Positions 8,350-10,474 of a stretch of 10,474 bases of DNA are shown one piece after another. This stretch comes from Spirochaetota bacterium (lineage in GTDB: Bacteria; Spirochaetota; Leptospiria; Turneriellales; Turneriellaceae), in the NCBI GenBank assembly GCA_029561505.1, contig JAKQXK010000132.1, positions 1-10,474 of the forward strand, read 5' to 3'. Under the pieces are notes generated by a model. It made no database searches, was not told the DNA's origin, and worked only from the letters and a program-made list of their open reading frames with translations. The translations under genes were made by a program, and so were the position numbers. Each line of letters begins with the position of its first letter. Position 1 is the stretch's first letter.

Positions 8350-10113
8350 TTACAGAGCCAGTTTCGCCAGATCTCTTTCACGCAGATACTGCGGGTAGAG
8401 TTCGTACAGCGGTTCGAGCAACGGCAACAGCCTCATCGCACGCGGCAGGTTGCCTTTGGGGCTGACCTCTTTGCGCGCCAATGCCTGCATCAGGTTCACC
8501 TGCCCATGCCAGAAATAGTGTGCAACATCCGCTGAAAGGGTGAACTCCACCTCGGGCGTAAATGCGCGGGCAGCATCGCCCGTGAGCACCTGCTTTGCTT
8601 TGTCGTCGGTTGAACCGTCGAGCGCGATCGACGCATCGGGCGCGCTGTAGTTAAACCGTATTTTCAAGCCTGAATTTTTCAGGGGTGCGAAAAGTTTTGG
8701 GTCGGCCTGTACCTTGAGAAAATACGTTCCGAGAATGTCATAAACTGTGGCCTCATCTTTGAATATGGCCTTGAGTTTTTTGGCGGCGCCCGCCGTACGC
8801 GCAGCTTTGAGCTCTGATTTCGAAACGGCAATCGGCTTCAGATTCTGCTCATACGCGGTCTTCACGATTGCGCGCACCGCTTCACCGGTCACGGCCTGCG
8901 GGTTATTGAGCATCGCGCCGTCTTCGAGAGCCGTACGCACAACCTGTTCGAGTTTCGCCAGGCCGTCTTTCACGCCGGCCTCTTTGAGACTCAGCGGATG
9001 CCCGCAGAGGGCATTCAGCTTCTGGTTCATTGCGCGCAGTTTGCCTGCAAGGCTCTGCGCGCGTTGTTTCGTCAGCCATTCGTCGACGAGGCCTAACTGC
9101 GTCACCGCCTGGTTCACCGCAAAATTATCGAGACGCGAGACGATTTGGTTGAGTTCTTTCACGGGATAAAAACCGCTGTCGCCGAAAATCTGCGCGATAC
9201 GCGCGTAACGCGCCGCTGAACTTTCCATATTGTGCTCAACGCTGAACGGCAGAATGATGCTGTTCGCGAGCCCGTGCGGAATATGGTAAACCCCGCCTAA
9301 CGCATGGCTGATACCGTGCACAATACCGACGCCGCCGTGGTTAAACGCCACCGCAGCGAGAAACGACGCCGTGAGCATAGCGCCGCGCGCATTGAGATCG
9401 TTCGGCACCGCGACTGCCTGCAGAATATTCTGCACAATGAGTTCAATGGCATAGAGCGCGAGCGCGTCTGAAACCGGGTTGGGGTTCTGGCCCGCATAAC
9501 ACTCGATCGCGTGCGTCAGTGCGTCCATTCCCGTTGCGGCAGTGACCTTGCCAGGCATCGTCGCCGTCATCTCGGGGTCTAAGATGGCGATGTCGGGCAG
9601 AAAGTGGTCTTCTGCAAATGGCAGCTTCACCGAATTCGCGTCGTCTGAAACCATCGCGAACTGCGTCACCTCTGAGCCCGTGCCCGAAGTTGTGGGGATA
9701 AATACCGAAGGCAAGATTCTTTCTTTCAGCAATTGTGCGCCCATGTGCTGCTGCAGCGGCCCGCCCTTGACCATCAGCAGGTTGATGACTTTCGCCGAAT
9801 CGAGCACCGAACCGCCGCCAATCGCGATCACCATATCGCACTTGTTCTGAACGCCGAGTTCGGCCGCTTCGGTCACAACTTTGAGTTCGCTGTTGGGTGG
9901 CACATTATCGTATGTGGCAGCGATAGTGATCGCTGAACCCTGAAGCCCTTCGATGACTTTTTTGGCAAGGCCAGCAGCGACAATCACCTTATCGGTGACG
10001 AGCAGCGCACGTTTACCGGGAAAACCGGCAAGTTCTTCACCGAGGCGCGAGGCGAGCCCGATGCCATAACGAACCTTTGTCGGCAGCGAAAACTGGTAAT
10101 AATCAGGTAGCAT
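8350..10113 (-). CDS. Iron-type alcohol dehydrogenase fused to SCP2-like domain
   Basis: The 587-residue protein far exceeds the roughly 390 residues of ordinary Fe-ADH enzymes. Residues 1-425 form the dehydrogenase: cofactor motif GGGSVLD (99-105), TTSGTGSE (141-148), and metal ligands Asp197 and His201 (in GMDALTHAIECY) with His266 and His280 (HGISHALGGVYHIPHG). The 14-residue gap between the last two matches FucO-type enzymes. The module closes with MLNNP and KTAYEQN. After a Lys/Ala-rich linker, residues about 455-575 resemble an SCP2 sterol-carrier domain: FNYSAPDASIALDG, then FTPEVEFTLSADVAHYFWHGQ, then LMQALARKEVSPKGNL. It presumably oxidises an alcohol or reduces an aldehyde with NAD(P)(H), and the fused domain suggests a lipid-like substrate; this is inference. 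The ATG at 10113 has no ribosome-binding site. Confidence 0.93.
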   Translation of the reverse strand: MLPDYYQFSLPTKVRYGIGLASRLGEELAGFPGKRALLVTDKVIVAAGLAKKVIEGLQGSAITIAATYDNVPPNSELKVVTEAAELGVQNKCDMVIAIGGGSVLDSAKVINLLMVKGGPLQQHMGAQLLKERILPSVFIPTTSGTGSEVTQFAMVSDDANSVKLPFAEDHFLPDIAILDPEMTATMPGKVTAATGMDALTHAIECYAGQNPNPVSDALALYAIELIVQNILQAVAVPNDLNARGAMLTASFLAAVAFNHGGVGIVHGISHALGGVYHIPHGLANSIILPFSVEHNMESSAARYARIAQIFGDSGFYPVKELNQIVSRLDNFAVNQAVTQLGLVDEWLTKQRAQSLAGKLRAMNQKLNALCGHPLSLKEAGVKDGLAKLEQVVRTALEDGAMLNNPQAVTGEAVRAIVKTAYEQNLKPIAVSKSELKAARTAGAAKKLKAIFKDEATVYDILGTYFLKVQADPKLFAPLKNSGLKIRFNYSAPDASIALDGSTDDKAKQVLTGDAARAFTPEVEFTLSADVAHYFWHGQVNLMQALARKEVSPKGNLPRAMRLLPLLEPLYELYPQYLRERDLAKLAL

Positions 10114-10118
10114 GCGCT

Positions 10119-10146
10119 ATAATGGGGCTTCGAGAGACAGCGACAA
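10119..10146 (-). promoter_or_regulatory. Candidate promoter for the dehydrogenase gene
   Basis: On the minus strand TTGTCG (10146-10141) and CATTAT (10124-10119) are 16 bases apart, each a partial match to sigma-70-type hexamers. The -10 ends five bases before the ATG, which would give a transcript starting at or next to the start codon. A perfect TATAAT also reads on the plus strand at 10118-10123 but has no -35 partner. Confidence 0.3.
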
Positions 10147-10158
10147 CCAAATCATGAG

Positions 10159-10205
10159 TTTAGGTACATGCGTACACTAAAGCCGTTTCCTTCTCAGGAA
10201 ACGGC
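10159..10205. repeat. Two adjacent hairpins beside the long inverted repeat
   Basis: The first stem pairs TTTAG-GTAC (10159-10167) with GTAC-A-CTAAA (10172-10181) around ATGC, with one bulged A. The second pairs GCCGTTTCCT (10182-10191) perfectly with AGGAAACGGC (10196-10205) around TCTC. They stand back to back with no spacing and end one base before the long helix. Part of the first (ACTAAAGC, 10176-10183) can also pair with GCTTTAGT at 10264-10271, giving a competing fold. Confidence 0.7.
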
Positions 10206-10206
10206 G

Positions 10207-10365
10207 AACAGGCGCCGGAAACCGAAAAATCGAAATGCAGCGAAGCGGCTCTTGCCGCGGAGCGCTTTAGTCGCTAACCAAGTGGTCCACGACCTATTGG
10301 CAGTCGTTTGCTCATGCAAACGACGAGGCATTTCGAATTTTTCGGCAATTTTTCCGGCGCCTGTT
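10207..10365. repeat. Long inverted repeat enclosing three hairpins
   Basis: The outer arms pair over 32 bp. AACAGGCGCCGGAAA (10207-10221) is perfectly complementary to 10351-10365; CCGAAAAAT (10222-10230) pairs with 10337-10345; CGAAATGC (10231-10238) pairs with 10328-10335. The right arm has two bulges: CAATT (10346-10350) and one extra A (10336). The 89-base interior holds three further stems: GCGGC-TCTT-GCCGC at 10245-10258 with outer AGCG/CGCT; CCAA..GGTC-CAC-GACC..TTGG at 10278-10300; and GTCGTTTGC-TCAT-GCAAACGAC at 10303-10324. Such a fold suggests a structured RNA, a folded single-stranded recombination site or a miniature mobile element. No target-site duplication or canonical integron core site was found at the ends. 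Confidence 0.75.
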
Positions 10366-10474
10366 ATCCCGCCGCGCGGGATCTGGATTTTAAATAGAAA
10401 TGAGCCGAAACGACCGACAGAAGAACGATAACCGTCATACCAAAGTAGATGTTGCTGTAACTTTCGGCAGGCGC
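10364..10474 (-). CDS. Membrane protein, C-terminal fragment (5' end outside window)
   Basis: On the minus strand the frame is open from the window edge to a TAA at 10366-10364, giving the last 36 residues. It begins APAESYSNIYFGMTVIVLLS and continues VVSAHFYLKSRSRAAG. The segment IYFGMTVIVLLSVVSAHFYL is a good transmembrane helix, followed by a basic tail (KSRSR) that would lie on the cytoplasmic side. No family can be named from this piece. Its stop codon uses the first two bases of the long inverted repeat. It is on the same strand as the dehydrogenase, 250 bases upstream. A GC-rich stem (10366-10382) overlaps its last codons. Confidence 0.5.
   Translation of the reverse strand, partial: APAESYSNIYFGMTVIVLLSVVSAHFYLKSRSRAAG

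Follow-up and report, generated by a model that had tools for sequence, protein, structure and literature searches.

What is the dense cluster of hairpins that lies between two minus-strand genes near the end of the window, i.e., the whole 10,474-nucleotide stretch analysed here, which is contig C306 in a draft genome (G000) of 722 contigs? The initial annotation had offered three candidates: a folded recombination site, a miniature palindromic element, or a structured RNA or leader of the adjacent dehydrogenase gene. To the left lies a gene for an iron-containing alcohol dehydrogenase (minus strand, start 10113), and to the right the 3' end of a minus-strand gene whose counterpart in Turneriella parva matches MFS_1. 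The TAA stop of this right-hand gene (minus strand, 10366-10364) overlaps the foot of the element's long helix, P1, and the T. parva counterpart has TGA where the window element ends on TAA.

The window element and its copies

The two hairpins (10159-10181 and 10182-10205) and the long helix (10207-10238/10328-10365) described in the initial annotation are present, and the fold far exceeds chance. As RNA, positions 10150-10375 of the plus strand fold at -112.7 kcal/mol, as against a mean of -66.2 (sd 4.7) for 200 dinucleotide shuffles, none of which is as good (z = -9.87). The minus strand folded as RNA (z = -9.27) and 10159-10365 of the plus strand folded as single-stranded DNA (z = -12.2) are likewise equalled by none of 200 shuffles. 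As had been noted, the interior of the long helix holds three hairpins, P2, P3 and P4, and its 3' arm bears bulges of 1 and 5 nt, the latter situated 17 bp from the junction. The parts are as follows:

10159..10181, plus strand: left hairpin TTTAGGTACATGCGTACACTAAA, from the fold and present too at the T. parva copy of the locus
10182..10205, plus strand: side hairpin H1, GCCGTTTCC-TTCTCA-GGAAACGGC, from the fold
10207..10238, plus strand: 5' arm of the P1 helix, from the fold
10239..10275, plus strand: P2 hairpin with an invariant AGC/GCT base, and the junction strand TTTAG, from the family alignment
10276..10301, plus strand: optional P3 hairpin, CCAAGTGGTC-CAC-GACCTATTGG, from compared copies
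10302..10327, plus strand: CAG, the P4 hairpin (TCGTTTGC-TCAT-GCAAACGA) and the start of the invariant CGAGGC strand, from the family alignment
10328..10366, plus strand: 3' arm of P1 with the 1-nt and 5-nt bulges, from the fold

The P3 hairpin was spotted by eye in six copies from five genomes and is missing from the T. parva copy of the same locus, and H1-like hairpins lie 5' of the core in most of the T. parva-type copies displayed. Open reading frames across the window copy have no Pfam match, and four terminator-like sites lie close to it as compared with 1.1 expected. The earlier statement that the element does not match tmRNA stands: a tRNA/tmRNA search of the window found none, and Rfam 15 at gathering score gave no match in the window and 11 loci. 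At E-values up to 10, positions 10050-10474 yield a single 9.6-bit match (E 9.5).

A search of the host genome and its relatives, as the initial annotation had advised, showed that the window element belongs to a repeat family. With it as query, BLASTN finds matches in five of 41 genomes; the covariance model R1 finds them in eight of 120, namely all seven of the genus and one (G009) from a different genus of the same family, Turneriellaceae. Covariance model R2 recovers the identical eight among 296 genomes of the phylum (7/7 of the genus; 1/289 of the others), in a scan whose capped scoring and stricter filters make its per-genome counts lower bounds. In T. parva DSM 21527 (G004), R2 finds at least 62 matches, 13 of which are the opposite strand of another match, leaving at least 49 places among the 150 scored of 2208 candidates. 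Uncapped scanning of 400 kb of this genome gives 11 distinct places at E < 0.001 (three of them weak, among them the variant junction of L127) versus eight in the R2 scan, and hence the true copy number in T. parva is above 49. With the T. parva origin assumed at base 1, the replication-strand bias of the copies is 30/52 (p = 0.33); sampled GC skew puts the origin near 1.3 Mb, with which a recount by hand gives 20/52.

A pattern of the exact core occurs in 29 stretches of genome contigs (17 spirochaetal, 12 from other organisms) and in two of viral contigs. Model R1 matches 16 of the 17 spirochaetal stretches. Among the 12 others it matches just two, L174 at 20 bits (E 0.025) and, on the opposite strand, L164 at 13 bits (E 1.9), and it gives 16 bits (E 0.28) on the two viral ones; spread outside the group was rejected, the non-spirochaetal and viral matches being taken as chance. 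A literature search by titles and abstract openings on Turneriella repeats, transposable elements, small RNA, and MITEs and stop codons did not bring up the family, and the passages on repeat-related terms in the T. parva genome paper (PMC3746428) mention no such repeat.

Several copies sit beside tRNA genes for His/Leu, Gln, Cys and Phe (L101, L103, L230, L237, L085), the L085 copy being also near a tmRNA gene. In L083, the sequence next to the copy (about 880-960) bears a visual resemblance to a portion of a cobalamin riboswitch, a likeness that Rfam at gathering score does not confirm.

The three-way junction and its strand

Read from the outside inwards, a copy consists of an outer helix or terminal repeat, often H1, then P1 and a three-way junction with P2, an optional P3, and P4. 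The outer helix or terminal repeat varies by copy group, and P2 is variable. The common core of the copies has the form GCAGC-(P2)-GCTTTAGCAG-(P4)-CGAGGC, with the junction strands UUUAGCAG / CGAG. In counts that are conditional, since the search pattern itself demanded a junction-like strand, CTTTAGCAG stands 5' of P4 in 72 of the 81 copies with distinct arms (pattern CTT[TC][AG]G, insert, [CT]A[GA]), and, with a stricter pattern, CGAGG stands 3' of P4 in 59 of 62 copies and CGAGA in three. The arms are free, with 27 different six-mers in P4 and 45 in P1 among the 81 copies, and still pair.

In an alignment of 16 selected rows, paired cells amount to 96.2%, and both sides have changed in 12 of 35 pairs. 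Among 45 rows aligned to the structure, one of them from the opposite strand, the corresponding values are 95.8% and 30 of 35, and kinship of the copies inflates such covariation figures. For both alignments, none of 500 shuffles attains any of five measures, and slid structures pair fewer than 50% of cells. When arms are read outward from the anchors until two successive mismatches, 1824 of 1963 pairs are Watson-Crick. A single copy, a lack of covariation and an ordinary fold energy, the three findings that the initial annotation had named as counting against it, are all contradicted.

Compensation can also be followed in place. The tRNA-His/tRNA-Leu spacer has same-orientation copies in T. 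parva (L230) and in G005 (L101), and of their 21 pairs 13 are identical, seven have changed on both sides, one has changed on one side and none is broken, though the two copies may represent separate insertions in one spacer. Two further orthologous comparisons of 21 pairs each have no both-side change, one with a single one-sided change and one unpaired position, the other with four unpaired positions.

Since each G-U pair of one strand corresponds to an A-C mismatch in the complementary strand, the two should be about equally frequent in the absence of a strand preference. On the plus strand of the 81 copies G-U outnumbers A-C by 52 to 23 (p = 0.001), and in a smaller overlapping set by 32 to 10, with p-values that are too small because the copies are related. 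Counted per copy, 34 are richer in G-U, nine are richer in A-C and 38 are ties. This excess favors the plus strand in single-stranded form. It cannot separate RNA from single-stranded DNA, as both accept G-U/G-T more readily than A-C.

Of 88 copies, 35 have a bulge of 5-8 nt on the 3' arm of P1, 14-18 bp away from the junction (16-18 bp in 32 of these); eight copies have a bulge of 5-7 nt on the 5' arm instead, at 12-14 bp, and 45 have no large bulge on either arm. The owners of the 35 are T. parva (24), the window's genome (8), and G002, G003 and G005 (one each). A related bulge, gagttt, is common to many copies, and unrelated bulges (aacaa, ataca, aatcc, cttcttaa) occur with different outer arms. 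The initial annotation had likened the bulges to the extrahelical bases of attC sites. The likeness has some merit, since the bulges of these 35 copies keep a nearly constant distance from the junction, in some cases on unrelated arms.

Mobility and gene ends

Copies are present or absent between relatives. The second copy at L127 of T. parva, which has a variant junction and matches weakly (29 bits), is absent in G002 (7 versus 223 bases) and G000 (28 versus 245 bases). The L118 copy is absent in G002 (79 versus 265 bases), that of L020 in all six other genomes in the stretches displayed, that of L016 in G000, G002 and G005, and that of L018 in G000, G003 and G005, while the L221 locus has a gap of 112 bases in G000. 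At the L018 locus, G003 and G005 have another perfect hairpin right after the stop codon, where T. parva has the element.

In G002, G003 and G005 the core is carried inside MITE-like elements with terminal inverted repeats. End patterns recovered end pairs at 13 of the 33 loci tried in these genomes (20 gave none), and all 13 end-paired elements have target duplications of 8-9 bp, nine perfect (8/8 or 9/9) and four at 8/9, in a scoring that allowed one-base shifts. The core is present in nine of the 13 (157-229 bp) and absent in four (126 or 74 bp), and hence is dispensable for that transposition. L264 and L265 of G005 are 74-bp core-less elements with the ends of core-bearing ones and duplications of 8/9 and 9/9. 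The T. parva-type copies, that of the window included, have no readable target duplication. The miniature palindromic element of the initial annotation is borne out by the dispersed copies, the empty sites and the target duplications of the sister-species copies, and a mobile palindromic repeat family is well supported. Against this stands a search for an autonomous partner by shared ends (two end types, GGGCGCGNGATTT and GGGTGCGGGCGCG; seven genomes, mostly fragmented drafts), in which only short elements, some of them without the core, and no transposase with matching ends were recognised. Within a few kilobases of one copy, T. parva has an open reading frame (L267, 882-1880) that resembles, by eye, an IS30-type transposase.

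At L239 (T. parva, near G004:C1:3447753) the P4 of one copy encloses a second, full copy that brings a side hairpin of its own, and at L221 the outer helix extends into the ends of both flanking genes, which suggests that hairpins might serve as insertion targets.

Gene context was taken from simple ORF calls, in which an ORF overlaps the core at 10 of 75 sites. Many copies, the window's among them, abut a stop codon at one of their ends. The core lies 32-44 nt past the stop codon in 21 of the 34 copies with a plus-strand gene upstream, and exactly 40 nt past it in 11. The 67 sites with both neighbors called comprise 18 convergent, 13 divergent and 36 co-directional arrangements; given this mixture, and a favored strand that is antisense to the dehydrogenase gene, the suggested leader of that gene is unsupported as a general role. 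By eye, the L018 gene of T. parva is five codons shorter than in G000, its TAA forming the foot of H1, and at L016 the neighboring gene loses six codons to a TAG located where the element ends. A stop codon can thus come from the element; at L020 the position of the stop codon is unchanged.

Readings of the family and known systems

The window element is probably a copy of a new non-autonomous, MITE-like family of mobile hairpin repeats of about 150-230 bp in the Turneriella group. The terminal-repeat versions would be moved in trans by DDE-type transposases, and insertions at gene ends would be tolerated because the element's ends are able to supply a stop codon. Judging from the conservation, covariation, strand asymmetry and bulge, the core is a putative recognised shape: the folded plus strand, as single-stranded DNA or RNA, would be read by a protein or other factor, and the shape would outlive its sequence because that factor reads the folded strand. 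If so, a bacterial mobile repeat outside integrons would be conserved as a shape with nearly all of its sequence free, in a group that includes a cultured type strain. Further, at least 49 copies in a single 4.4-Mb genome, many of which are a gene's last bases, would shape 3' ends genome-wide. Since the arms vary freely, the family would amount to a natural mutagenesis experiment from which the recognised shape could be derived.

More tentatively, the junction could be a new class of folded recognition module, serving a factor of the Turneriella group as an RNA aptamer, a ribozyme or a single-stranded DNA site. As a shape-defined cargo, it would travel in several mobile palindromes whose ends differ and which insert at hairpins and at the ends of genes.

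It is rather doubtful that the core is a functional structured RNA of the genus (a 3'-end element, aptamer or small ribozyme) selected locus by locus and merely spread by the terminal repeats. Such an RNA would account for an invariant junction whose arms are free yet paired, the 52 G-U versus 23 A-C, the in-place compensatory changes between L230 and L101 and the many copies right behind stop codons. However, the mixed gene arrangements would make about half of the copies antisense to the upstream gene, promoter-like sites close to the window copy number zero, and Rfam has no match. Replication template switching, which corrects quasi-palindromes to palindromes and would pair the arms without selection on structure, is improbable as the source of the pairing: while the H1 of L023 and the outer helix of L221 do pair with flanking gene sequence, and the hairpin-in-hairpin nesting of L239 is of the kind expected, the process leaves the conserved junction and the G-U/A-C asymmetry unexplained and should erase the 5-8-nt bulges at 14-18 bp, which instead recur.

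That the element is an attC-like integron site, at which a tyrosine recombinase would cut the folded single strand, is very improbable, since, for all its attC-like folded and specific strand, sequence-free arms, bulge and position near gene 3' ends, and the tyrosine recombinases present in the genomes, RYYYAAC with its exact complement across occurs in none of 72 copies (the window element has neither RYYYAAC nor GTTRRRY on either strand, as originally annotated), and the integron-integrase model TIGR02249 is above cut-off in none of eight genomes (best 106 of 265 bits; all 14 control genomes also score below cut-off). Of seven loci that hold the best recombinase, one has a strong match to the element close by and a second a weak one (17 bits, E 0.07); an integron-type recombinase was hence rejected as the mobiliser. 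The folded recombination site in the integron sense is unsupported.

The preferred reading, a family of mobile hairpin repeats, has several partial parallels. Like the bacterial MITEs and small repeats reviewed in PMC2229807, the Turneriella family is short, dispersed, intergenic, palindromic and non-autonomous, and it shares with MITEs the target duplications (in sister-species copies), the dispersed short copies without a coding gene and the presence or absence between relatives. According to the same review, some small mobile repeats among Correia/NEMIS, CIR, RUP, RPE and ERIC/RU-1 bear RNA structural motifs. What may set the Turneriella family apart from these is an innermost junction that is conserved while arms and ends vary, and a core that is common to elements whose ends differ and is lacking in some of them. 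Dispersed intergenic hairpins are also a feature of REP elements. Unlike in REP/RAYT systems, no element match of significance lies close to the Y1 transposase genes, which occur in six of the 11 genomes; the best match at 11 loci is one of 17 bits (E 0.023), and RAYT was rejected as the mobiliser. The BOX elements of pneumococcus are modular, with outer modules that pair around variable inner ones, and the Turneriella family would resemble them in this modularity. Finally, the copies in L022, L025 and L026 of T. parva and L108 of G000, whose arms are otherwise different, have a similar extra palindrome in P4, approximately TAGAGCGGTTTC..GAAACCGC, as though one hairpin had been placed onto another.
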